Source of the DNA: Paramacrobiotus metropolitanus
Taxonomy: Eukaryota > Tardigrada > Eutardigrada > Parachela > Macrobiotidae
Length of the DNA stretch: 64,000 bases
Reading direction: 5' to 3'
Assembly: GCF_019649055.1 (NCBI RefSeq)
Contig: NW_026570284.1
Coordinates: 124,001-188,000 of the forward strand
In this document: positions 28,062 to 50,680 of the stretch, in pieces
Layout: the number at the start of each line of letters is the position of its first letter
Position numbering within the stretch: the stretch's first letter is position 1
Made by a program: the position numbers and the translations under genes
Notes under the pieces: model-generated
What the model was told of the DNA's origin: nothing
Database searches by the model: none
Seen by the model: only the letters and a program-made list of their open reading frames with translations

Positions 28062-31000
28062 CTATAACGGTCCACCTTGATGTCCCCAATATTGCGCCTG
28101 CGGTCCCTTGTTCTGTTTGTTGCTGGAAACATTCTGCGCATTCATCGCTGAGACCTGCTGTACCGGCTGCTGGATGGGATGCACCGCCTGCTGCGTCATG
28201 ATCGGGAAATATCCGGTCGTTGCGTACGCTCCCGGCTGTTGATTGCCCATTGGCATTCCGAATCCAGGCGAAGGCTTATCAAACTACGTACGAAAATAAT
28301 AAACATATAATACATAACGAAATATTATCATCAATACTGTTCATTAATGACTGAACCCATATTTCATTTTATACAATTAACAATAAGATAAACAATTAAC
28401 AATAAGATTGCAATAACAATAACAATAGCAATAACAATAAGATATACAGTATGTACAAACATCGCTCCTAAAAAAACTACTAAAACTTCTTCCGCTTAGC
28501 AAATAGACAATATGTTAGTTCTTTACCTTATTCACAGGCTTATTGTAGTACCCACTCTGCAGATCGGCACCACTAAGCATTCCTGGACTTCCAGCATCTG
28601 TAAATTTTTCAGCAAACAATCAGCATCGAACTGAATATGGACACGATTCACACGAACTGCCATTCAAACACTACGAGTACGATGAAGTTTTGAACCATTG
28701 CTGTGCAACTTACAAGTCTCATTGCCCTGTCCTCTTAATCCTACGTAAGTGTTGGACGCTCTCGTCACATCACCCAGACCGCTCATATCTCCGTAAGTAT
28801 TTCCGGAATAGCTGTTTCCCAGACCGCCACTACCCTTCGGATAATTCGACTGCATACCAGAATACATCTGTGTCGTATACTGTTGAAAGTTCTGTGCCAC
28901 CGGGGGAGAGAACACTTGGTACGGTCCAGGATACTGGTTCATCTGATGCGGTCCAACTAGGCCTTGCTGTTGGGATACCTGCACCTGCTGATTCGCCAAT
29001 ACCGAATCATTCCGATACTTGTAATCACTGGTTGAGGAATAGCCTAGAGTGTTGTCACGGCCTTGCATGTGGCCCTGGTAAGAATAGTCCATTGGGATAG
29101 CGGGCTGCAAATTGTACAAATAATTTACACATTATGCATCTGAATCCGCAACGAACGTCCTCTGCTAATGCAAGGCATACAATTCAAATTTTATGTTCAT
29201 ATTCGCTAACAGAACGGTTACCTGCATCACATTATGTAGTCTGGGATCGTTCATGCCATCCAAACTCGCGGAATACATAGGATGGAACATCTGCATGGTG
29301 TTCTGTTGTGGAAACGGTTGCTGTTGAATGAACGGTTGATTCATCACGGACTGCGTCACGTTGGGCTGATTTCCTCCGTACGGAGACTTCGAACCTTGAA
29401 GCAATCATTCTTAGGTCATCCATTCAGACATAAATCAGAAATTTGCGGATGATCTTACTCATCGAAGTCGACGGAATTGCTTTCGATGTGCTGTACACCG
29501 GTGTCGTGGAGGACGCCGCCATGGATCGCTGCGGCGACACCGTCACGGTGGTCGGCAACGATGTCGGTGTGGCTTGCGGCATCAGATTCGCAGCACTCTC
29601 TTTAGATGGTGTGGACTGGAAACCGGAATACGAATTGCGGTTGCCCGCCTCGCTGGACAGATTCCCGTACGCCATGCTGGTCGGCGTCGTTGCCGTCGGT
29701 TTCACCGGTGACGCCGAGGGCATCTGCTGGCCGGCCGCGTGGGAGGTGGCAGGATACCCGGCTGCCTGGGAAGCGGTTTGCGGAATATGTCCGGTCGAAG
29801 GAGACACCGCCTGATTCGCGGTCTGCGGAGGACGCTGTGGAGATTGCTGTACAAAGGCCGATGGAGCGCTGAATTTCTCGGCCGACTGCGGAGAGGCTGT
29901 CGGTTTCTGCATTCCCAGACTTGCCGCACTACTGGGATTCGCTCGTACGTCTTGACTAAAAACGCCGTCACCAAAGGCCGCGGGACCGGCCGCTGTAAGC
30001 CCATGCTGCGGCGTGGGTACCGGACCGGAAACGACCGGAGCATTCTGGATATTCCTTGCTGAATACGTGTTTGTCATCATATCTGCAACCCACAAGACTC
30101 AAATAAAATCCAGTACACAGCAATTCAAGCCTGTTGTACTGTACCGTTCTGAGAATTCGTGAACGTTTTCGACTGCATGGGACCTGCAAAGGCACCGGCA
30201 TTCTGGAACGTCTGAGATTTGACAGAATCGGCGGCATTTATAGGCGCCGCATGGATATCTGGTCTTTGTTGCTGCGATGCTTCGTTCCGCGTCGATCCAA
30301 ATTCTTGTGCACTAAAACGGATCCATCACTTGTAATTTTGCCATACACGAATAAGTACTATTCGACGCCCATTGTTAAAAATTTCGCAACCAGCAACCAT
30401 ACCTGGGAACTGCACTATCACTTGCAGCATTCGCAAACGTATTCCTCGAGGAAAACGTCTGACTTTGGGACGGACTGGAAAACTGATTCGCCGAATTTTC
30501 AAGAGGCGGCAGTGAACGGTTGAAAGTGAGACTTCCCAACTGGGAATTGATCTGCGCTACATCGCTCTTTCCCTCCTGCAAAACCAGACATAAACAACAA
30601 CTGCACAATGTAAGAGAAAAAGCGGCATAGACCTACAGTAAGGAGACTAGAACCGGGTAATCCGGGCCCCGACTGCGTATCCGACAGATTTCCCGATGGC
30701 ACTGCGTTACCCTTAGATGCGGCTGGACTGCCGGCAGCAGTAGCATTGGTCTCCATCCCGCGTTGTCAGGTGTGGGACGCGGAGGTGTGCTAGCGAAGGA
30801 TGGATTGTTACCGGTCCACGCTGTTTGTTTCTGTACCATCGCCGAAAATGTGGGACTGCAGGGAAAGTAACCGTTTAAAACCTGAACTTACACTGGCAAA
30901 CTTTCACGCATTACATACCCGGTATTATAATATAATTTAAATGAGTTTTTATAGCGTTAACATAGTAATATACATACCCCGACGTAGTTGCCGTGGATGC

Positions 31001-32896
31001 TGTCTGTTGTGCTGCAGGATTTGCACCTCCAAATGGCTGCGGTGGTCCCGAAGGTGCTGAGCTTCTAGTAAACACTTTTGTCTCTCGAATCTGCAACCGC
31101 AAACACAATTGCACATGAACTGACCAAAAGCTGGTACCAAAATTTTCTCACATCTTCTTTCCAATCATCATCTGTGTCTTCCCATGAATGTTCTCCTCCT
31201 CGCCCTTTTGATGGATCTCCGCCACCCTTAACGCGGGATTCCGATACGGATTTATTAACAGGAGATGCTGGCCGGTCGCGATTTGGCGGCTGCTGAGAAC
31301 GACTGGGCGGCGCTCCGTTCGAGGAATCTGTGTTCAATGACAAAATGAGTAACTAAGCGCCAAATAAATGTTAGAATCACCAAACGAACTTTGATGCGCA
31401 TCTTGTGGAATGAATCCGGATTTCTGCATGGTCTGTACACTGACTTTTCCGCCCCGATTACTGGTACTACGCTGCTGCTGACGACCCCGTCCCCTTCCCA
31501 TTCCGAAAGGCACGTTGGATCGTTCGTCCGTTTCCTGGTCTTTCTTCGCTTTCGGCACTTTTTTACCTTTTTTCCCTGTGGTTTCCCATTCGCTCTACAT
31601 ACACAATATTGCTGCATAAAGACAATTTAAATTAACTCTAATCAAAATTTACGGATAATACCTTTAATTCTCCGCCTTCTAACAAAAGATTCACTGCCGC
31701 TTCCGTATCATTACCAGTATCGTGAAGCGCAATAATGGCATCGTCTGAAGAACATCCCGTCAGCTCCATGACCTAAAAACGTACAGCGTTTGCAGAGTTT
31801 GCAATAGTCAAGAGACCTCAAACCGAATGGGATGGCACTTCTACGAGTAATTGCATTATTATCGCTTAAGCAAACGTTTTATCCAGTAAGCATGCTATTA
31901 CTAACTCCAGAATCCTACACAGACAAGGGAAAAGTGTATACGTATTAAAACTCCATCTCGACTATAAAAGCACCACTACGCCATGGCTATCAGTCTATTC
32001 ACTTCACTACACATTTGAATACAATGCTGCAGTGTAACTACAGATGCCGATTTGGGAGTATTTCAAATATCACGTTCGTTAGCAAATCTCGAATCGGTGA
32101 TAGCACCTATATCTTGCAATTCAAAATTTCGGTAAGAAATAATTACTGCATGAATGTATCAATAAATTACATATAAGTTGCCCAGGGTCGTAGACTTAGC
32201 TGCTTATAAAAACTGAAATTTTTCCAGAAATATGTAATCTGAATAATAATTATACGGAAGGATAGATTAAGGGCTTTAAGGCTCATCAAGTTGTTTTTAT
32301 GGGCAAATTAAACTTGCGTAATTATGGGCAAATCAAATTTATATTAGTGTGCTTCTGCTAGTGCTTTTGGTAACTTTGATGAGCTTATTAAAAAGAGAGA
32401 CCTGCCTTAGTGGCTGCTGCCTAATAATTAACAACAATATTCTAAATGCAGTTCATGATAATAACCGATAACGCAACAATCAAAATCTATTGCGCCATAC
32501 CGCGTTATTAGCACAGACACATTCCCATACCTGCTGCGCTTTTTCCTGAAGTGCGAGATCCTTCCCGGAGGAGTTCTGAAACATCTGTGCCATGCGCAAC
32601 TGTTCAGCGGTAGCCTGGGGTGCCTTTGACGAGACGGTCTGACCAGACGTCGAGGGAGTTTCCGCTGTTTTATCCGCTTTCTTCACATCCTGCACGGGCT
32701 TGCGTTCGGCTTGGCGTCCGGGAGTACTGCGCGCTGCGGACGGCGCCGCTTTCACACTGTCCTCATTCTCCTTGCCCGTCTTCGGAGCTCCTTGGCCTTG
32801 GGGAACCCCAGGACGAACTGGAGTACCCTTCTGTGAACGATTGGCACGATCGCCAGCCATCTGAGCGTCAGATTGTTCCAAAACCGTTGGAGGCAT
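28062..32896 (-). CDS. UBAP2L: UBAP2L / lingerer-type UBA-domain RNA granule protein (one apparent frameshift)
   Basis: Thirteen exons: 32896-32531, 31772-31662, 31594-31381, 31327-31152, 31090-30978, 30855-30637, 30575-30403, 30311-30145, 30082-29459, 29394-29222, 29104-28714, 28597-28527, 28283-28062. They give about 1006 residues. The UBA domain lies across exons 1-2 (QLRMAQMFQNSSGKDLALQ, then VMELTGCSSDDAIIALHDTG with AAVNLLLEGGELK). Exon 3 has SEWETTGKKGKK and an RG-rich stretch (GMGRGRGRQQQR). The rest is low-complexity Gln/Ser/Pro/Asn sequence typical of this stress-granule family, with a Tyr/Gln/Gly-rich C-terminus. The frame breaks once near 30757-30759 (a run of three C on the plus strand). 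The partial paralog at 40394-40613 is uninterrupted at the same place, which supports one missing base here. Intron 12 contains an (AATAAC)n-like microsatellite. Confidence 0.93.
28375..28445. repeat. AATAAC/AATAAG microsatellite
   Basis: Irregular tandem CAATAA/CAATAACAATAG units inside an intron of UBAP2L. Confidence 0.7.
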
Positions 32897-32899
32897 TTA

Positions 32900-34424
32900 T
32901 ACAAAGGGAGCGGTCAAAAACCTATCCGAAGAAAAACGTTTTGTTCGAAGATGACGAGTGAAGAAGTCCATACAGTGCGTACGCTGCTAACGTGCGCCAT
33001 AATTCGTGCGTCATGAAATTCGTACCAGGAAGGAAAGCAGTTCCTAATGGCACACTTGTATACGAAACTTTCACTCACAGTGATTAATGATTTACAAAGC
33101 TGTGGAAAAGATTCAAACTTTAAAGCAAATCATAACAGAATGCCCAAACAAAAAACAACGAAATATAATCAAAAGTTCAAAACCTAGAAACCAGTATTAA
33201 AAGTGCCAGTGTGCCACTCTCGCTAATCGAAATAACCACATCGACCTAGGGACAAGTTAAGTATTGTGGACGGTATTTTTTTGCTGCCTAACTTTACCCA
33301 GTTCAAAATTACCTGTAGGTAGACGTTTTAAGGTCTGTACTCACCGATTTGAAAAGGAATTAACAAATAATTACTCACAAAATTTCAGAATCAAAAAATG
33401 GATACAAACTTTTTCGATTTTGCGGAAAATATGAAATGTTATGAAGGTGCGTGATGCGGTTCTGTGTAGAGCGATTAGTCATGGCTCACGGTACGCAGCA
33501 GGCGTACCACAAGACGTAATACGTACCGCACATACGTCGTCGGGTACTTACGTTACGACTAGCGTTTCGCAAGTCGCAGTGCCCGCCTTCAAGTTTAGTC
33601 GATTTTATCCGAAGCAAAATATATCTGGATGCAAATACAGTATATTCGAAGAAAAATATATCCTGTCCCCGGGCAAACAAATGATTTCTTTTATATTCTT
33701 TAGGATTATTTCGAACAAGCAAAATAATTATGTGAAATGCATGAGCATAACCACACAGGAAATAGAAATTTGATGGATATTTGGGCAATGCAAGCCGCAG
33801 CTGGTCAATGTTCTGTGTTCATCCGCTAACTTATTTACCAGAAAAAAACGTAGAATTATGGGAGGACATATTTTTAAATCATATTTTGAAATACATAAGT
33901 TTGTTTTTGATTGTCTTTCGTAATGCAGGTCAGCAAGTGCAGTCTGTAGTGGTTTCTCTTGAAGCCAAAAAATTATGATCACAGGAAAACCGTGAACAGT
34001 TGAAATTTGCCGCTGCTATTAGGGCGCCATCTATCGCGTACTGCAATGAATCACCCGTACGCACGAGCGCACAGGGATCGCATACCATCGTTTTAAATGC
34101 ATTTGCCTGATCGCTGCCACAGACCAGCAACAAAATTTTGAAACATTTTATTTTAATCCACGATCGTAGCGGATGTTATTTACGGGTTTCTTCCGCCTGT
34201 TGTGTTTACTATATCTACCACGATTTTGAAGTACTTTGTAGTGTGCATGAAAGAGTAATTGTGGTCACAGTTTGATATTCTGTCCACTCAGGAGGTACGT
34301 CGCAGTTATATTGCATAGTGAACCCAGTCTGGTTGTCAACAACGTGGAGTATCCGCTGTTTCCCATAGGGCTACTCTTCTTCCCCCCTTTACAACATCCC
34401 GTGCGCCTCCCTAATCTCGTTAAA
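32900..34424. other. Divergent intergenic region between UBAP2L (-) and PP2A (+)
   Basis: The two genes are transcribed away from each other, so both promoters lie here. The first roughly 550 nt upstream of UBAP2L is partly repeated at about 42950-43590 beside the UBAP2L copy. No coding feature is supported. Confidence 0.5.
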
Positions 34425-36873
<2,449 letters not shown>

Positions 36874-36879
36874 CTTCAC

Positions 36880-38042
36880 TTTTAATTTATGAGTTAACAC
36901 AATAATGAGAAGACAGACGAGATAATTATTGCAGCATCTGTGTACAGATTTGTTGTAGTACGTTGTACGCAGAGGGTATTTTTCGGCTTTCCTGCTACCT
37001 TTAATTGTGAACGCTTAATGTGTCAGCGGCGCTTCGTAAGGGTTCGATAATGTTCAGTTAGCGGAGTACTTAGTAGCACTCTTTTTGTCGCGTTTACTAG
37101 ATTTCTCTCAGCACGTGCGGATTTTTGCGTTTTTTCGCTGGACTTTTTATTGTGAAAGATTGGATTAGATTGGATTCGGATGTTTAACATTGCCGTTTTG
37201 TGTCTACATAAATTTTGAATATGGGACTTATTCCTGATTTGAACTGAAGTAGTCGCAACTACACTAATTTAGCATATTAGCTTGTATTCCATCATCCATG
37301 AACGGAAATCTTCATCGGTTTCTTTTCTGTAGAATCGTATGTTTCTGGATTCGACGATAACAATTTAAGTTACTACAGAAGTGCAGTATGTAACAGACTG
37401 TATGTTCATCGTCCCCTCCATATGTTTCACATTCGCATGACGTACGTATCCGAGAAATTTAACAAAGACTTCGATATTACCAGATACAGATAATCATAAT
37501 ATTGCTGTTACCAAAAAAAGAGGTACAGTAGTACAAGTACAACAAATATTCAATCAAAATATATTCATAAAAGCTAAAACATTCTCAAAGGCTTGAAAAC
37601 AAAAATTACCAGTAGGAAAACAAAATATATGACAACCAACAATACAGTAAAGGAATCGGAATCTAGTCCCCGCAACAATTCTTGGTCCCTGTCGACTTCA
37701 CAACCATCTGCAAACGAATCACTGTTAACCTCAGAATTCAAGAGGTTCGTTCGGCATGCACAACCGTATAATAAACCAACTTACTATAGATTTCAACGTT
37801 AAGCAGTTTATATAATTATAGTAAATGGCACATTTGTTAATCAATAAGCAGTTATTAATTACCTTTCTAATAATCTCAAGCCGCACTGACCTGAAAACGC
37901 TCTAAAGATTCAAAGTCAGCTCAAATCATGAACTACCACCTTTATGTACCACCACGGTCGTGCACAAAGCAGTACATCCAGGTAGCTAAATACAGCGATA
38001 CCATAAACAAGAAAAACCATTTCAAACCGACAGCTTACCTGC
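36880..38042. other. PP2A 3' flank and intergenic DNA
   Basis: The stretch up to about 37215 is shared with the PP2A copy (to about 49430). Beyond that no gene is supported; ORFs at 37593-37802 and 37928-38179 on the plus strand lack features, and the second overlaps the end of the minus-strand Crinkler exon. Confidence 0.45.
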
Positions 38043-39759
38043 TTAATGCCAAGATAACATATAATAAACGGGAGTTGGCAGATTATTCAGTTTTTCCGGC
38101 CAACCGAATGATCCTTTCTCAGCGCTTGATGCGACTGGAGGGCATGATAAAAGGTGTCGATTGGGGACCAAATAAATAAATCGCACACTACTCGCTCCTC
38201 GGCCGACCAGCTCACCGCTTTTGCGGTTCTTGCGCCCTTTTGACTCCTCTACACCGAAAATCTCCGCGTTGCATACATAGCGTACAAATGTAAACAGATG
38301 ATCCATATCAAATGCTTTCTTTTCCTTAGCGGTCGTAATTTGGAAAAACTGAACTTCATTGCTTTCTACGTCCAGAAACGCAGCGTCAAACGCTGGATGG
38401 TACGCAGATACCGGAATCATCCAGCAATTTCGCCTACGCTCCTTAGCGTCCGAAAATGCGGTATTTCCATTACCATATTCAAAGTAAAATACGTCTCGTG
38501 CGCATTCAAGCCGCAGGATTTCCGCAGTCGTAGAGTGTTCAATATCGAAGTAATTGGCGTACACAGGCCCTCCGGTGTGTGTTCCGTGACGGATTGTAGC
38601 TATCACAAACCACTCGAAATAGATTCCAACTACTGTGCAATCCTGTAACAGTGACAAATTGCAAGCTTTCTGGACGACATCGGGAAACACATCTTTCTTC
38701 AACTGGTTCTCAACATAAGCACTAATATAACACGGGACGGCTTCTTTGCCAATGCGTTGCAAACCGATCAACCTGCTTAAGGTAGAAAGCATAACGACGT
38801 CAAGGCCATTCACGTGTTCGCCCCGGGACAAAGACATCAAAGAAATGCCTAAATCTTGCTCCACCGTTTCGAGTGATACAAAAAATATATTGCGCACCGA
38901 CATCCCGACACGGTCAAACTTTACCCGGATCATATCTTTTGCTTTTTCTTTCGTGAAGTCCTGTTCATCGCAGCGAGGATCCACATAATTTCGGTAGTCA
39001 TTCCACAATGTGATTTTGACAGAGGAAAAAAAATTATCACACTCGATGGCGTACTCCAAGTCAAGCAATTCCCACGAACAATGCCGTAAGACTCCGTAGT
39101 CACCGTGTTGAATTTTGGTCAAAAACACATGAAAGGAGGATACATACAACAATCTGCGCTTTGGACGGGTTTCTTCGGCCGTTCTCCACCAATCGAATCT
39201 TCTGCGAACATTTTCGTCAAATCCTGTTTGGGTGTATCCGTCAATTACGATAACGCATGATTCATTGGTGTCTACTTCGTCGATCAATTTTTTGGCGGTC
39301 TCAACATCCAGAACCTCAAATTCCAAAGACTTAATCTGAAGACGCGCTCCGACTATATGAAAGTCAATACAAATTCCAGTATATTTTCCAGGCAATCGGA
39401 TCCATCGGACTCTAAAACGACCGTCCAGTGCAGTACAGATTGCAAACCCGAAAGTTGTGTTCGTTTTCCCGGCTCCGGGAGGACCGAGGATGAAATACGT
39501 GTGGTTGTGATTAGAGGATTTGTTGAGGATTTCTGATAATTCTCTCCACAAAATCTTGTACTCATTACGTTTGAAAAGGAAGAGGTTGGAACCACTGGAA
39601 GTTGGACGCAACTTCGCTAAGTCGGCTAAAAATGCTGGGATTTCCCCCCAGTCCGTCGCATTTTCAATCTTTAAAGACTCAACTTTATTCCTGTCCACGG
39701 GATCGTCCTTGTATTTCCAACTGTTTGCGCATGCTTTTTCTGTACAATTCAGGAGAAAA
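38043..39759 (-). CDS. Crinkler/RHS-type P-loop NTPase plus PD-(D/E)XK-like nuclease exon
   Basis: One long open exon of about 570 codons after a TGTATTTTTGCAG acceptor at 39760. The P-loop GPPGAGKT is near residue 99 of the open frame and a Walker B-like CVIVIDGYT near 175. A RRLLYVSS strand follows, as in the RHS/Crinkler NTPases. The C-terminal part has FDAAFLDVESNEVQFFQITT, matching the D...E/QxT pattern of the fused restriction-endonuclease-like domain. This architecture is known from Crinkler effectors of oomycetes and fungi and from trypanosome RHS proteins, and is proposed to descend from transposon-borne systems. It is an unexpected gene here. The open frame has no Met until roughly residue 290, so a start codon must come from an upstream exon. 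The phase matches the UBAP2L copy exons just upstream (see next entry). Its role in the animal is unknown. Confidence 0.7.
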
Positions 39760-40154
39760 CTGCAAAAATACACACGCACTAGAAAAAGCGCAGTCCAAAC
39801 ATACCTGGTGATCCGCTTGATGAATCCCCTTTTGGTCCATCAAAAACACTTCCAGTATTATCCCAATACCGACCGCGAGATCCGCTCGGCAGCTGCATGT
39901 CATCATGCACAATGTGACAACTGGCGACACATGCTGAATTATTTCTACAAGCAAGCAATCGTAAACTAACTACCACCATCTTTCATAAATTCCAATATTA
40001 ATAAAAAAAACAGGTAACAGGTTTCAGCTAATACCAGTATATCGTACAATTCCCAAAATCAAACGCGATTATAATACGACGAAAATTATCGCATATGTAA
40101 ATACAAAAATACCTCAGGATTACTAATTTCATTTTTCTCACTATTGAAACACAC

Positions 40155-42945
40155 CTGGGTACTGCACTATCACTAGAAGCATTCGCAAACGTATTCATGG
40201 AGGAAAACGCCCGACTTTGGGACGGACTGGCAAACTGATTCGCCGAATTTTCAAGAGGCGGTAAAGAACGGCTTAAAGTGAGACTTCCTAACTGGGAATT
40301 GATCTGCGACACATCGCTCTTTCCATCCTGCAAATTCAGCCGTAAACAGCAACCGCAAAATGTATCTAATACAAAAATGCGGTGTTGATTTACAGTAAGG
40401 AGACTAGAACTGGGCAATCCGGATGCCGACTGCGTATGCGACGGATTTCCTGGTCGCACTGTGCTACCCTTAGCTGCGGCTGGACTACCGGCTGCGACAG
40501 CATTGATTCTCCGTTCCGAGTATTCAGCAGCGGGACGCGGAGGTGTGCTAGCGAAGGATGAATTATTACCGGTCCACGCTGTTTGTTTCTGTACCATCGC
40601 GGAAAATGTGGGACTGCAGGGAAAGCAAGAATTTGAAATCTTAGCTTACACTGGCAAACTTTCACGCATTAAATGCCCGGTATTATAAAATGACTTTTTA
40701 ATTTTTATAGCGTGAACATAATGATTTACATACTCCGACGTAGTTGCCGTGGATGCTGTCTGTTGTACCGCAGGACTGGCACCTCCAAATGGCTGCGGTG
40801 GTCCCGAAGGCGCTGAGCTTCTTGTAAACACTATTGTCTCTCGAATCTGCAACCGCAAGCATAACTGCAAATACAATAAACAGAAGTTAAAACTTTATCT
40901 CACATCTTCTTCCCATTCATCATCTGTGTCTTCCCATGAATGTTCTCCTCCTCGCCCGGTCCACGCTGTTTGTATCGCCGAAAACGTGAGACTGAAGGGA
41001 AAGCAACAATACAAAACCTTAACTTAGACTGGCAAACATCCAAGCGTTACATACCTGGTAAAGCCGGTATTATAAACGAGTTTTTATAGCGTTAACATAA
41101 TAACAATTAACATACCCCGACATAGTTGCCGTGGATGCTGTTTGTTTTGTCGCAGGATTTGCACCTCCAAATGGCTGTGGCGGTCCCGAAGGCGCTGAGC
41201 TTCTTGTGCACATTTTTGTCTCTCGAGTCTACAACCACAAAACACAACTGCAAATAAAATAACCAGAAGTTGTTTACAAAGTTTGCTTACATCTTCTTTC
41301 CGATCATCAATCGTGTCTTCCCATGAATGTTCTGCGCTTCTTCCTTTTGATGGATCTCCGTCGCCCTTAACACGGGATTCCGACACGGATTTATTAACAG
41401 GAGATGCTGGCCGATCGCGATTTGGCGGCTGCTGAGACTGACTAAGCGGCGCTCCGTTCGAGGAATCTGTATTGAAAAAAAAAATCATCAGTGACAATGC
41501 ACCACATATATAACAGAATCACAAAACGAACTCTGGTGCGCATCTTGTGGAATTAATCCGGGTTTCTGCATGGTATGTACACTGACTTTTCCGCTCTGAT
41601 TACTGGTACTTCGCAGCTGCATACGATCCGGTCCCCTTGCCATTCCGAAAGGTACGCTGGATCGCTTTTCCGTTTCCTGGTCTTTCTTCGCTTTTGACAC
41701 TGTTTTACGTTTTCCCCCCGTGGTTTCCCATTTGCTCTATTTACAATATTGCGTAAAGACACTTAACTCTAATCAAGATTCACGGATAATACCTTTAGTT
41801 CTCCTTCTAACAAAAGATTCACTGCCGCTTCCGTATCATTACCCGTATCGTGAAGCGCAATAATGGCATCGTCTGAAGAACATCCTGTCAGCTGCATGAC
41901 CTAAAATACGTAAAGCGGTTGCAGAGTGTGCAATACTCGAGAGACAACGGAACCGTTGGATGGTACTTCTACGAGTATAAAGTGCATAATATCGCTTACG
42001 CAAAATGTTTTATCAGTAAGCATGCTACAGTATTACTCACAACAAAATCCTAGACTGACAAGGGAAAACAGTTTGTATGAATTAAAAGTCCATCCCGACT
42101 GTAAATGCACCACTATGCTATGACTATCCGTCTATTCACTTTACTACACATTTAAATGAATGCAGATTTGGGAATACTTACTATATTTCAAATCTTCCCA
42201 CATTCATTAGCAAATGTCGAATCTGTGATAGAACTAAATCTTGCAATTCAAAATTTTTCGGTATTAAAGAAATAATTACTGCACGAATCCATCGGTAAAT
42301 TACAGATAATAATGCTTATAAAAATGCAATGAATTTGCCACTAAAATTTTTGCTTGACTAATAATAATACATACGCCAGGACTCAGATTTTGATTTTTTC
42401 AGGGTTCAAGTTTTAACTGCGTATTAGTTTGCATTTGCTGGCGCTTTTAGTAAGTTTGATGGCTCTTACTGTACCTATTAAAGAGAGGGACCTGCCTAAA
42501 CACTTAATTAACAATTTAACAGTAACACACGAACAATATAATTCCTGGGAATAGCGCAACAACCAAAATCTAGTGCGCCATACCAAAATTTATGCAGAGA
42601 TACAAATCTCCATACCTGCTGCGCTTTCTCTTGAAGTGCGAGATCCTTCCCGGAGGAGTTCTGAAACATTTGTGCCGTGCGCAACTGTTCAACGGTAGCT
42701 TGAGGTGAACTGGATGAGACAGTCTGTTCAGATGTCGAGAGAGTTTCCGCTGTTTTATCCGTCTTCTTCACATCCTGCACGGGTTTCCGTCCGGCCTGGC
42801 GTCCACGAGTATTGCGCATCTCGTACGGCGCCGCGTTCCCGCTTTCCTCAGTCTTCTTTCTCGTCATCGGAGGTTCTTGGCCATGGGTACCCTCAGGATG
42901 AACGTTAGTGGCCTTCTGTGAACGACTGGGACGATCGCCAGGCAT
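40155..42945 (-). CDS. Partial UBAP2L copy, predicted 5' part of a chimeric gene
   Basis: Nine exons can be placed: 42945-42616, 41900-41793, 41736-41523, 41466-41291, 41228-41116, 40991-40904, 40846-40734, 40613-40394, 40327-40155. They parallel UBAP2L exons 1-7. They keep the UBA region (QLRTAQMFQNSSGKDLALQ, VMQLTGCSSDDAIIALHDTG) and open frames with many amino-acid changes. The original start codon is retained at the equivalent site but is out of frame after a small deletion; ATG at 42945 (MPGDRPSRSQ) would restart. The sixth exon (40991-40904) is a hybrid of exon 6 start and exon 4 end, and exon 5 occurs twice. UBAP2L exons 8-13 are absent. The last exon ends in phase 2 and the Crinkler exon at 39759 enters in phase 2. 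Exon lengths sum to a clean 1083-residue frame if all ten are joined. Confidence 0.6.
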
Positions 42946-43590
42946 CTGCGTCAGCTTGCTCCAAAACCGTTGGAAGCATTCATACAGAGGGAACCGTTCG
43001 AAGCATTCATATAAAGGGAGCGGTCAAAAATCTGTCTAAATAAAACGTTTTGTACGAAGAAGGCGATGACGATTGACGAAGAAGTCAACACAATGCGAAC
43101 GCCACTACCGTGCGTAGTGAAATCCGCAGCTAGATAAACGTTGTGTCATAAAATTCGCGACTGTGAAAGCCCTGAAATCGACCCAGGAATAAAAGCTGCC
43201 AGTTCTCAGAATTTAATGATAGTCATTGAGAGCAGAATATACCGTGAAAAATTACCACATACGTCTGCAATTACTCCACTAATCGAAATAAACACATCGA
43301 CCTAGAGTCTAGGTCCTACGGTAGAATCTAGAGATGAGTTATCATGAGTACTGAAATTAATTGAGGATTGTGGAAAGTATTCTTTTGCTGCCAAAACTTT
43401 ACAAACACTTTACTCAGTGTACTGCTTAAAATTACCTTTTCGGATACTTGTTAACGTCCGTGTTTACCGATTTGAGAAGGAATCAACAAATAATTACATA
43501 GAAAGACAAAGTTCCAGAATCAAAAAAGGGATACAGCTTTCTCGATTTTGATGAAATGTTATCATGTTATGAAGGCATTAGGAGTTAGGA
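40155..43590. repeat. Duplicated block A' (copy of UBAP2L 5' half and upstream flank)
   Basis: This block is similar to about 30403-33440, including introns and the upstream flank. Divergence is moderate, with indels. It ends on the right near the fold-back element at 43633 and on the left between the exon 7 copy and the Crinkler exon. Confidence 0.85.
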
Positions 43591-43632: not shown

Positions 43633-44283
43633 ACGCGTTCTTCCCTCGTATGGGAACAATGCGTTCATTGGCTGTGATCACAACCAATAGAAACTGCGAA
43701 ATGGGCTCCATTACATTACCGTCTAGGCGCTACTAATAAATAGGTGCTACTAAATACTTTAATAAATTCGCGTTTGCAACCATGTCTAGGCGCTACTAAT
43801 TAGGTGCTACTAAATACTTTAATAAATTCGCGTTTGCAATGCGAATTTCGTCTAGGTGCTACTAATTAGACGCTATTAATATTTTATTGCAAATTGCAAT
43901 GCACGTGCAATATATGTAGGTGCTACTAATTAGGTGCTACAAATATTTCTAGGTTATTTCTAGCCACGTGTAAGTTATGTCTAGGTGCTACTAATTTGGT
44001 GCTCTGATATTTTATAGTAATACGATGTAGGTCATGTCTAGGTGCTACTAAATAGGTGGCAATAATATTTTATTGCAGTACAATGCAAATTACTAGTATA
44101 TCTAGGTGCTACTAAATTTTTTAATAGCAACGCGATATGAATTGAGGTGCTACTAATTAGGCGCTACTAAATATTTTAGTATAATCGAGCCGTGCAATCC
44201 GGTATTTCACAATTTCTGTTGGTTGTGATGTTAAATTATCACAGCCAATGAGGGCATTGTTCCCATACGAGGGAAGAACGCGT
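43633..44283. mobile_element. Non-autonomous fold-back DNA transposon, 651 bp, with internal minisatellite
   Basis: The element begins ACGCGTTCTTCCCTCGTATG and ends with its inverted complement CATACGAGGGAAGAACGCGT. The terminal inverted repeats extend imperfectly for about 75 nt, through the CAATG, TCATTGGCTGTGAT and CACAACCAA segments. A perfect 10-bp direct repeat flanks it. Long inverted ends, internal tandem repeats and a 9-11 bp duplication are typical of Mutator-like and Drosophila FB-type elements, so I assign it tentatively to that group. No transposase is encoded. Confidence 0.85.
43720..44175. repeat. TAGGTGCTACTAA minisatellite
   Basis: About eight degenerate units, mostly 58-66 bp apart, each containing one or two copies of (T)AGGTGCTACTAA(T/A) plus an AT-rich TATTTTA(A/T) segment. 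The array forms the core of the fold-back element. Confidence 0.85.
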
Positions 44284-44293: not shown

Positions 44294-44539
44294 GGTGTGG
44301 GCGCCGCCCTCGGGGTGCAGGTATGTGTAAAACGTATCCACGATGATGACTTGTTTTGAGTTAAAAGTTGCCACACAGGCTGTTCTTTTTAAAAGAAGGT
44401 GAGAAAACCTCGTGACGATTTTATCCATTACCTTGCTTTCACCGTTTTGTTTTGTGTTTCTAAACGTGCCATGTTGGTGGTTGCATTTCTTGCATAATAT
44501 ACATTATTTCAATATCCTATGCGCGTGATTTAAGTGAAT

Positions 44540-44786
44540 ATGACGAAGAATAAACTTGCCAATCGTCCAGCGAAACCCGATGCCAAAGCAGCCGCCAGTG
44601 TCGCTGTTCCGGCAGCGACACTGGCGGATGGGCGACGAGCTGCGGATGAATATCGTCCGCAATATGATGCGGCAGTATCAGCGAACGGGCTTCGTCTGGG
44701 AGCAGTATGTGGACGGTGAAGGGAAGGGATCGCATCCGTTTACGGGATGGTCCAGTCTTGTCGTTCTGCTGATGTCGGATTTTTAG
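44540..44786 (+). pseudogene. MOGS remnant: 5' and 3' ends fused by an internal deletion
   Basis: The first about 65 nt after ATG at 44540 match the start of MOGS exon 1 ([19 protein letters not shown]). From about 44626 the sequence matches the last 160 nt of MOGS (GGATGGGCGACGAGCTGCGG onward) to the stop at 44784-44786, but in a different frame. The frame from the ATG ends at 44719 after 60 codons. About 2.6 kb of the gene, including intron 1 and the whole catalytic domain, is missing. It cannot encode a glucosidase. Confidence 0.88.
44592..44627. repeat. 15-bp perfect inverted repeat at the MOGS' deletion junction
   Basis: Arms at 44592-44606 and 44613-44627 (core CGCCAGTGTCGCTG and its complement) are separated by the six bases TTCCGG. 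Neither arm pair exists in the intact gene: at 51036-51055 the sequence differs, and the 3' segment at about 53690 has TTGCGG before ATGGGC. Confidence 0.85.
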
Positions 44787-46104
44787 TTTTGGTTTTACAA
44801 AAGCCTCGGCTCAATATTTTGTTTTTTTAATCTGTATACCATCCCGGTCTGAACTGGGAACTGCCATACAGTTACCGGTGTTGTTTTTATCAGCCAGAAA
44901 GCCCTGCTTTCTTTTTTTACAGATGCCGTTTAGTTTTTACGGAACACATCTTTGGGAAGAGTGATCTCCGCAAACCGCGATGATGTCTGTTTCAATCGTG
45001 TGTCACTTTATTAAACTTTATTTCTTATTATTTAGTACATCCCTTTAGTAACCTATACGATTGCACTTAATCGAGTGCTGTACTCTTAAGCGCTGTTTTA
45101 GTTCTGCTGATTCAGTATTTCCGCACACACACGCACAGTTGGCTGATGTGGTTCTGAAACGAGTTGAGAAAAGGAACTTTAGAGTTAACCGCATTTTTGA
45201 ACGTAACTGCACGAGTTTGCAATCGCTTCCACTCCATTCCGTCGCTTATCGTCCTGGTCGCCGTGGTCGGTTACAAACTTATGACTGATGCATTCTTTTG
45301 CGGCTAATCTGGCTACGGAATGTAGGAAGTACTTTACAGATGTTGGACTGATTTCATTTTATTAAGTAGGAGGCTGGCTGTGCGAGTATTAATAATTTTC
45401 TCGCCTTCTTGACATTAAGTATTTTGAGGAAATCATGCTGTCGAGACGTCGAGTGCTGGCCGGGCGAAATTTTAGAAGGACAGTTGAAAACCGCTTCCTG
45501 GATAGACCGAGATCAGCGTCGACGATGTGTCGATGTTATCTGACCTTTGAACATTGCTGCGTGAAGACCCTTTCTGTTCCAGACATGGAGATTCGGCATT
45601 TCCGCATCCGCTTTTACGTCGCGCCGTTTTTTTGATCCCTGGTCCTTCCGTTGACTTCTTGTTCAAAGGTCCCTGATCACCAAACTTCCACAAGGTATCG
45701 TTACTAACTCTACTGTAATATTTTATAACTATTTTGACCACAGTCCAATAGGTGCGCATTATTAACTGGTAAGCTGTGCTTACAATTATGCGGTTTAGGA
45801 ATTCTAACGATAGGATAGAAATACATACGTCGAATCCCGCAACAACCGCTCACACAAACTTGTCCAGGAAGTGCCTTTACTGACTAATTTTTATTTATTT
45901 TATCCAGATTTTTATCCTTGAAATTATACTCTAACAGTGGGATGGCAGTGCCATTAGAGCCGCTCTGCTGTAATTGCTTGTTTTTCCTTGACGTGCACTT
46001 ACGCATGTCAATATTAATGCGTAGTGCAAGGCGGGATTTCGGGATTTGGCACAAATGGAAATGGAATGTATTTGCTGTACCCGCTAATGCTATCTGCGAC
46101 ATAC

Positions 46105-46553
46105 AGTATGGGCATAGAAAAGGATAATACTTAGTGAATATTAAACTCATCATAATTATTTTGCTTATAATTTTGATTAAGCTTATCATAATTGGAAATT
46201 GATCAATTTTAATTATGATCAGCATAATCAAAATTCAACAATTTTAATTAAACTGGAGCATAATTAAAATTGTCCAATTTTAATTTTGCTTATCATAATT
46301 AAAATTCAGTTTTCTTTTGATCAGACTATTTTTATTGTTCATAATTTGACTCAGAATTAAGCTTAAGTATAATTAAAATTGACGAATTTTAATTATGCTT
46401 AAGCTTAATTAAAAATGCACAATTTTAATTACGCTCAGCATAATCAAAATTGCCATAATTTTAATTGAATTAATCATAATGTTTAATTCCCAGCAAAATT
46501 AAGAGTTTAATTATCACTAATAATACTGTATTATCCTTTTCTATGGTATGGGC
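46105..46553. mobile_element. AT-rich MITE-like insertion, 431 bp plus target duplication
   Basis: The element spans 46114-46544 and has 17-bp terminal inverted repeats, ATAGAAAAGGATAATAC and its complement. Inside are many repeats of AATTTTAATTATGCTTA-like words in both orientations. Flanks are AGTATGGGC (46105-46113) and GGTATGGGC (46545-46553), a 9-bp duplication with one mismatch. The paralogous site near 55165-55180 has only ATATGGGCAGCATG with no insertion. Confidence 0.85.
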
Positions 46554-47354
46554 ATTGGGCAGCATGCGTCAAAAAGATGCTGCAATTATTTCCGCAGCAT
46601 ATAAATGATATCAATTTTCTGAATTGTGGCCGAAACTGTTCCGGTTTCCTGTTATTTAATTTTAACTTTCTCACATTTTCCGTGTACTTCTTTTTTATGA
46701 TAATTTTCACTTGGCTGTTGGCATTTGATTTGCGTTTAGGTTCCCTGGTTTGCAATCGCGTCATTGTACAAAATATCTCAGTCCGTCGTAATTTGTGCGC
46801 AGTATTGGTGGATTCAGCCTTAGGTGCTGCTTTCTGCTAGGTTGCATCCTGATTCTGGTTTTCTGGGTTCCTACACATTCTTCTGGAGGCTGTGCTTATT
46901 TGAGGTATAGTCGTGGGGGTACAGTGGTACTGATAATTTGCTGTTGGGAAATCACAATAGCTTTGCTTGTTGCTTGCATCTGTACTGATTGGTTGACTAT
47001 TTTTCAGGTCGCATTTCCTTTACAGTGTGCAACTGCTTTTTGACTGGAACAAATAAAAATGGGAACATGAAGGGGGATGCTGAAAGATTATCTGAAGATT
47101 ATTCATTAGTATCCGAACTGAATTCGTTAGCAGATTTTTGATCTGCCAATGTCTTTCAAGTTCATTTGACAGGTAAAAGCGAAAACTGGATTGCATCGAT
47201 CAGTAAATCGCAGTTCCGCAACGTATTATGGTAATTTTGATTTAACAAGAAAACTAAAATACCTTAGGATCTTGATGATGAAAGTAGTAAATGTATAAAA
47301 CCAATAATTTGTCTTTGCATATTCTCACACACGTCTTGGTGATCGTAAAACAAT

Positions 47355-49430
<2,076 letters not shown>

Positions 49431-49439
49431 GAAGTACAT

Positions 49440-50680
49440 TTTCCTGCTTGAGGCACGCGCGATAACACAAATTTATTGCACATTAGCTCATATTTCGACA
49501 ACGGAATTCAGTATTCATCGCTCGTCGAGTTCTTTTAGGTCAGATATTTATAGTATGCTTCTGGAAACGATAACATCGTAGTGAATTCTGGAAAACCTTT
49601 GCACAGTTTCACCCAAAGATATAATATCGTAATATCATGGTAGAAACAAAGTAGAACAATTTATTTAGTAATTTGAGTGCAGTTATGCAAACAATACTTT
49701 CCATACTTGTAGATCTACATAGTTATTGGGATGTGTGATGGAAGTATATTTTACAGAATCCTGTATTCACAATACTGTTCACAGAGTACTGCATATATTA
49801 TATATATTAAAAAACTAAGTTAATATAGTATAACTAAAATTTAACTAAAATAATATAATTTAACTAACATAATATAACTAAAAATTTTAGTTAGTGAATA
49901 GTATCTGAATCTGTCGGAGTGTACGCTACCGAATACAGATGAATTGTCACGATAAATTTTTTTTCATTATTATTAGTGCTTGGTGGCCTTGAATGAACTC
50001 CGAAAGACGACATACGGTACTTAGGTACTCTGCTTTAGGGTTGTCCGTACTTTTGTTAATAATACAGTTTGGTTTGATGCGGCAGTTCGGCCCGATGAAT
50101 TCTTTTAATAAAAAAACGGAATCACTAAAGTAACGGCGGTGTGCAATACCGGCATTCAGAAAACAAAATTCGAAAGGAAATCTATTACACTCCTTCCCGA
50201 AAGATATACATAATTTTCCAGGGAAAAACTATTAGATAACCAGTAACCATTAATTTTGCCAAACATATAAAATACTCAGTAAATTTCAAGCTCGGGTAGG
50301 CTATTATGGGCCGGGAAAATGCCCGGACGAACGATGTTTTCTTTCATTGAAAATCTGTAAATTTTGAACATAGTTTTCTAAGAAGTAAATTCTTATTTCA
50401 GCAACTGGAAATTAAGTTAATGCTTGAATAGATGTTGGCTTTACACCCCTATATCTAACTTTTATAGAAAACAATTATGACTGACATATTAAAGTGTTTT
50501 ACGTAAGTAAATGGAAATTTGAAATCTGATACATGCAGGTATTACAGTAGTAATTATTTAAGGAGGTATTTTATTTATTATTTATTTCGTAAGTAGGTAG
50601 TATGTACAAGTCACACTACTATTACAGACTTGAGTTTTTAAATTGTTTTTTAATCGCAACTTCGCAAGCAGCAAACTGCG
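49440..50680. other. Intergenic, no supported gene
   Basis: AT-rich spacer between the PP2A copy and MOGS. A stretch at about 49800-49895 has repeats of TAATATAACTAAAATTTAAC. No coding feature is seen. Confidence 0.45.

Follow-up and report, generated by a model that had tools for sequence, protein, structure and literature searches.

A half copy of UBAP2L in frame with an orphan NTPase and nuclease-like exon in a tardigrade: a candidate gene fusion

Can a truncated duplicate of an animal's own gene provide a new head for an effector-like enzyme? The question is raised by a locus of the tardigrade Paramacrobiotus metropolitanus, lying in a window of 64,000 nucleotides (positions 124001-188000 of contig C64, NW_026570284.1, 855,882 bases). 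On the minus strand of this window, a partial duplicate of a UBAP2L-type gene is followed by a single long exon coding for a P-loop NTPase with a nuclease-like tail. The two halves look maintained as proteins and stand in a position compatible with fusion. On the evidence of the sequence, the balance tips modestly toward a transcript that joins them. The assembly in which related sequences were sought comprises 169.8 Mb in 533 contigs.

The UBAP2L half copy and the ten-exon frame

The first-pass annotation of this locus had proposed ten exons with GT-AG borders and matching phases, joined into an uninterrupted frame of about 1083 residues, and an exon-by-exon check bears this out. All nine introns are GT-AG, the phases at the starts of exons 1 to 10 run 0,0,0,1,0,2,0,2,0,2, and every exon is open in its own frame, with the first stop at 38043; the total of 3252 nucleotides encodes 1083 amino acids plus the stop. 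That the parse of exons 1 to 9 is not a chance one is seen from the parental gene at 28-33 kb: eight of the nine match single parental exons end to end, with borders at most two bases off. The exons and the two UBAP2L-type units are listed below, with w denoting the ratio of nonsynonymous (dN) to synonymous (dS) substitution rates between parent and copy.

28062..32860, minus strand: UBAP2L-type gene, parent of the copy, no second full-length one being found in the assembly (stop at 28062 read by eye)
40147..43575, minus strand: duplicate of part of the UBAP2L-type gene (exons 1-9 and the region before them), aligning to 30395-33447
42616..42945, minus strand: exon 1, with the ATG, a disordered head and the start of the UBA block (330 nucleotides, gapless against the parent, 83% identity)
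41793..41900, minus strand: exon 2, the UBA core (108 nucleotides; UBA block w 0.08; match to 1wj7_A)
41523..41736, minus strand: exon 3, RG-rich in the parent and eroded in the copy (214 nucleotides; w 0.75)
41291..41466, minus strand: exon 4 (176 nucleotides; matches a parental exon)
41116..41228, minus strand: exon 5 (113 nucleotides; matches a parental exon)
40904..40991, minus strand: exon 6, a composite whose 5' part resembles parental 30855-30637 and whose 3' part resembles parental 31327-31152 (88 nucleotides)
40734..40846, minus strand: exon 7, of the same type as exon 5 and duplicated within the copy (113 nucleotides)
40394..40613, minus strand: exon 8 (220 nucleotides, one more than in the parent)
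40155..40327, minus strand: exon 9, the last UBAP2L-derived exon (173 nucleotides; donor CAG/GTGTGT, score 9.1)
38043..39759, minus strand: long exon with P-loop NTPase, nuclease-like tail (D...QxT) and stop at 38043 (1717 nucleotides; acceptor score 9.8)

The proposal that the head is a duplicated and truncated UBAP2L finds support in this comparison, as the block duplicates part of the gene at 28.0-33.4 kb. The aligned pieces of 30395-33447 and 40147-43575 are 71-85% identical, with one further piece of 27 bp at 96%. The similarity ceases at 40147, about 8 nucleotides past the donor at 40155 and inside the intron after exon 9, beyond which the parental intron is not alignable. Hence the copy has no UBAP2L 3' half; the single one located in the assembly belongs to the parent. 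Since it breaks off in the intron that follows its final donor, the copy could work only with an acceptor or 3' end gained anew. An internal tandem duplication (387-bp period) has given the copy its composite exon 6 and its second exon of the exon-5 type.

The identity of the head is marked by its UBA block, which matches 1wj7_A at an expectation value (E) of 1.3e-10 along the full 68-residue query, with the flanks of the UBA core included in the alignment. This record is named 'Hypothetical protein (RSGI RUH-015)', and we take it to be the UBA of UBAP2L. The Pfam model UBA_4 matches at 1.3e-3, below its cut-off, and no Pfam match was obtained for exon 9 of the copy, its parental counterpart or the two 3' open reading frames (ORFs) of the parent. 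A likeness of QLGSLTF/QLGSLTL to the FG-FG motif, part of the G3BP-binding domain of unknown function (DUF), is presumed by eye.

Selection on the copy is uneven along its length. Over 438 codons compared between parent and copy, with copy exons 5 and 6 excluded, as well as the bases near a one-nucleotide difference described below, dS is 0.213, dN 0.105 and w 0.49. By block, w is 0.08 for the UBA, 0.72 for the N-terminus, 0.75 for the RG exon and 0.28 for exon 4, with 0.27 for copy exon 7 against parental exon 5 and 0.30 for copy exon 9 against parental exon 7. The UBA block of 62 residues shows two nonsynonymous differences on both branches together, against a neutral expectation of 15.2 such changes on the copy branch alone (Poisson 3e-5). 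In six introns, 1,020 aligned bases contain 25 indels, of which 16 are frame-breaking, whereas seven exons carry two (of 3 and 1 nucleotides) in 1,333 bp, so that a single frame-breaking one is present, in parent or copy, as compared with about 10.5 expected in exons on a neutral copy branch. Judged by these comparisons, the UBA block of the copy is under purifying selection, and selection has maintained the copy as a protein, chiefly in its UBA, through at least a large part of its age: the UBA changes and the frame-breaking indels are both few against neutral expectation. A pure pseudogene was considered for the copy, and was rejected on the UBA w of 0.08 and the near absence of frame-breaking indels.

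These data also bear on whether the adjacency means anything at all, that is, whether the UBAP2L copy might be a pseudogene or a product of misassembly. That errors or decay exist here is evident from the one-nucleotide difference: the parental exon 30855-30637 is one nucleotide shorter than copy exon 8, and the frame of the copy fits the following exons while that of the parent is broken. Either an error of assembly or real damage to the parental gene may account for this. The neighbouring glucosidase copy, described below, is moreover internally deleted. On the other hand, the copy differs from its parent by 6-17% in eight matching exons and by 16-28% in introns, and is therefore no duplicated contig piece; its UBA is constrained, its frame is kept, and the locus lies inside an 856-kb contig. 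An artefact is thus the least probable of the explanations entertained here.

The long exon and its paralogues

The long exon has 571 open codons. The first-pass annotation had noted that it lacks an early Met, which holds, and had put the Met-free part at roughly 290 codons; the first in-frame Met stands 275 codons in. With no start for 275 codons, its dependence on an upstream start is supported. A search of the assembly with this exon returned six rows, representing the window itself and four other places at 25-39% identity: contig C35 (in two pieces), C10, C59 and C376 (one piece, at the contig's end). An open stretch of 571 codons with diverged paralogues elsewhere in the genome is not a product of chance, and the long exon is, as far as its sequence can tell, a real gene.

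The proposed domain content, a conserved P-loop NTPase with a nuclease-like tail, is likewise favoured by motifs that recur in the paralogues. The signature GPPGxGK[ST] and a later DG (of an hhDG motif) are invariant in all four aligned sequences, with further columns kept, and FD...VxFxQxT is invariant in all three aligned tails, the C59 tail reading differently. The D...QxT pattern is taken here as a nuclease mark. In the C35 paralogue (L015:4499-6490) one in-frame TAA lies between the NTPase and the nuclease-like part, in the second piece.

The three other long paralogues (C35, C10 and C59), read as ORFs, each present a large ORF preceded by shorter, charged ones. Since UBAP2L-like UBA sequence is found at two places only in the assembly, both in contig C64, these paralogues carry other heads. 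Upstream of the long ORF at C59 (L017:2642-3690) the ORFs are acidic and repetitive. Capture of this head from another gene was considered as well; there is no sign of it, a DNA search of the genome finding no second copy of the upstream stretch besides a 50-bp inverted match within itself.

The Crinkler/RHS label that had been attached to the long exon found no match in Pfam, PADLOC, NCBIfam, the protein collection, viral contigs or the sequences of the PDB. In Pfam the exon reaches nSTAND3 (PF20720) and AAA_25 (PF13481) at E of 0.1 and 0.29, with little alignment beyond the P-loop. The paralogues do so at 0.0064 (C59, nSTAND3) and 0.00092 (C35, AAA_25), below the curated cut-offs, and the nuclease-like tails match nothing. 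PADLOC yields two weak matches only (0.045-0.049), both on paralogues, and NCBIfam sub-threshold ones, for example FlhF at 0.031 for the long exon and a replication factor C model at 4.5e-4 for C59. From the protein collection, 6,183 candidates for the long exon and 7,275 for the four-sequence alignment gave none under the threshold, within a search range of at most 1.75 times the query length (about 1,000 residues), which an annotated fusion of 1,083 residues would escape. None of 600 stretches of viral contigs was confirmed. Among PDB sequences, 16 chains match the long exon (E 0.075-1), many of them around the P-loop, and the tails give four weak matches (E 0.68) with no nuclease among them.

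The junction and its alternatives

Exon 9 ends in exactly the phase that the long exon requires, as had been claimed. The suggested route by which a truncated UBAP2L could capture this exon without breaking the frame also agrees with the parent, where the intact exon 30575-30403 ends in phase 2 and the next exon (from 30311) takes phase 2. Splice sites were scored with a profile from the 15 introns of parent and copy, with leave-one-out scores as reference. The donor at 40155 scores 9.1, equal to the best leave-one-out donor (range 1.3-9.1), and the acceptor at 39759 scores 9.8. Equally strong sites occur in the window at 0.18 per kb for donors and 0.39 per kb for acceptors. This acceptor is the best of 13 rescored between 39836 and 39655, and in an earlier version of the profile it was also the best from 40130 to 39690.

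Several points weigh against a fused transcript. The profile derives from two related genes and includes the parental counterpart of the donor at 40155; the acceptor at 39759 falls in the middle of the leave-one-out acceptors (-1.8 to 14.0); the agreement of phase alone is a 1-in-3 event; and the rate comparison of parent and copy presumes equal branches, with the N-terminal part and the RG exon near relaxed. A first exon with its own start serves the long exon just as well by splice score, and a second in-frame donor in the same region, at 40113, scores 9.3. The features that compete with the direct junction are as follows.

40113..40132, minus strand: rival first exon encoding MKLVIL from its ATG (its donor at 40113 and the acceptor at 39759 together score 19.1)
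39805..39944, minus strand: alternative exon of 140 nucleotides (acceptor 7.7, donor 10.0), requiring the acceptor at 39739

Two separate genes might be present, an NTPase-nuclease with its own first exon and a UBAP2L copy coding for a short UBA protein, and this has to be given appreciable, if clearly smaller, weight. The donor and acceptor of the fusion sum to 18.9 as against 19.1 for the ATG at 40132, and because the two score equally, splice scores do not divide the fusion from separate genes. A further model, with an ATG at 39979 and a donor at 39870, also uses the acceptor at 39759 and sums to 15.3. The start at 40132 would place MKLVIL before FLLNCTEKACA of the long exon, a combination that looks like a signal peptide by eye. 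Read on unspliced, exon 9 meets a stop at 40030, which would close the short protein, and the other heads of the paralogues likewise speak for independence of the long gene from UBAP2L. Against this, the edge of the duplication at 40147 lies 15 nucleotides before the ATG at 40132. This speaks against an old promoter of the long gene's own at that place, and both promoter and 5' untranslated region would need to be supplied by the UBAP2L copy. For a short gene, no AATAAA or ATTAAA is found from 40155 to 39690, a weak point, as each occurs about once per kb.

The 140-nucleotide exon could provide either an in-frame link from exon 9 to the acceptor at 39739 or, starting at ATG 39898, a 5' exon for the long gene. 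As the main model of the link it was rejected: it is in phase, but the acceptor at 39739, with a score of -4.7, falls short of every one of the 15 reference acceptors, and separate-gene models that use this acceptor suffer from the same defect. Its coding score of 0.07 leaves the matter undecided, as 16% of 228 open, presumed non-coding windows score as high and the coding mean is 0.21.

A third alternative would be that the join is transcribed as a roleless read-through or minor isoform, each half being selected through other transcripts. The relaxed N-terminus and RG exon are consistent with this, as is the tolerance of the internal tandem duplication. It would, however, need two functional products, with no evident 3' end for the one and no evident promoter of its own for the other, and is accordingly regarded as improbable.

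The predicted product and the surroundings of the locus

If the fused transcript is taken as the working interpretation, its origin may be pictured in a few steps. A segmental duplication copied the UBAP2L 5' half with its upstream region and part of a divergent glucosidase gene, and this half gene came to precede, on one strand with it, a gene that has a single large NTPase-nuclease exon. Transcripts begun at the copied promoter would then extend into that exon, with the orphan donor at 40155 using the acceptor at 39759. The resulting hybrid of about 1,083 residues would combine a disordered head and UBA, an eroded RG stretch, a P-loop NTPase and a nuclease-like tail. Its UBA head might guide a nucleotide-gated nuclease to ubiquitin-marked targets, such as ribonucleoprotein or foreign or damaged nucleic acid, and it would act inside the animal's own cells as a domesticated effector-like or defence protein.

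UBAP2L is conserved in metazoans and, in the human protein, the UBA is tied to ubiquitin and the DUF to G3BP binding and stress granules, with conflicting results on the need for the RGG region in stress granules, according to the review PMC9250975. The closest known proteins are UBAP2L, UBAP2, lingerer and PQN-59, and the order of UBA followed by an RG-rich part given in that review recurs in the tardigrade gene; the copy differs in being a 5' half only with an eroded RG run. Exon 3 has three RG dipeptides in the parent and one in the copy, and one GRGG occurs in exon 6 of the copy. The earlier description of an RNA-granule-type N-terminus thus stands for the UBA, which is kept, and fails for the RG-rich exon, which is relaxed. 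A kept UBA with a weakened RG exon would fit guidance by ubiquitin better than the building of granules.

A parallel might be drawn with the Crinkler-RHS-type (CR) proteins. In PMC5289972, slightly over a quarter of their C-termini are described as an NTPase plus a restriction endonuclease (REase), and their N-terminal headers as varied, some of them ubiquitin-like. The long exon resembles that description in its domain order, a P-loop NTPase followed by a nuclease-like tail. It differs in having no sequence or profile match to the CR/RHS family in the collections searched, the CR proteins being compared by description only; there is no ubiquitin-like header, and no known header family in Pfam matches the long exon or the UBAP2L half. 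The likeness to nSTAND3 and AAA_25 is confined to the P-loop region and is sub-threshold. The passages of PMC5289972 consulted make no mention of a UBAP2L head on a CR protein, and the literature searched yielded no report of a UBAP2L-Crinkler fusion.

It is tentatively suggested, as an idea more likely to fail than to hold, that the selected, UBAP2L-derived UBA head became the new header of an orphan NTPase-nuclease family, making of it a ubiquitin-guided nuclease in the animal's own cells. The three other long paralogues lie near F-box genes, and the whole small family may thus be tied to the ubiquitin system. If true, a header taken from a host stress-granule gene, its UBA kept by selection, would be a testable case of the taming of an enzyme by animals. 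If the genes are separate, the locus would still hold a selected UBA half copy and an NTPase-nuclease family found, in the collections searched, only in this genome.

The F-box genes stand within about 10 kb of each long paralogue, at L015:340-1386 (C35), L016:6205-7155 on the minus strand (C10) and L027:2252-3109 (C59), and a second ORF family occurs near the same loci (L015:2465-3193; L016:5373-5807; C59:624749-625009). On C43 the second ORF (C43:630922-631359) occurs with F-box-like matches and no nuclease match in 28.5 kb. Neither an F-box gene nor the second ORF family was seen in the window.

The UBAP2L gene and a GH63 glucosidase gene (Glyco_hydro_63, 3e-202) are divergent neighbours, and the duplicated block retains part of both. 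Direct repeats of 2.1 kb, with three short fragments found elsewhere in the genome, flank the half-gene block and could have driven its gain or loss.

44441..47353, plus strand: internally deleted duplicate of the GH63 glucosidase gene, most of its coding part missing, in the same duplicated block
35170..37288, plus strand: low-copy direct repeat R1, 94% identical to 47356-49494
47356..49494, plus strand: low-copy direct repeat R2, 94% identical to R1

At 43633-43839 and 44204-44283 there are tandem and inverted units around GTCTAGGCGCTACTAATTAGGTGCTAC. These units occur at 42 places genome-wide with at most two mismatches, against 0 for the reversed control, and perhaps represent a family of small mobile elements. 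An AT-rich tandem array of 36/71-bp units occupies 46169-46466.

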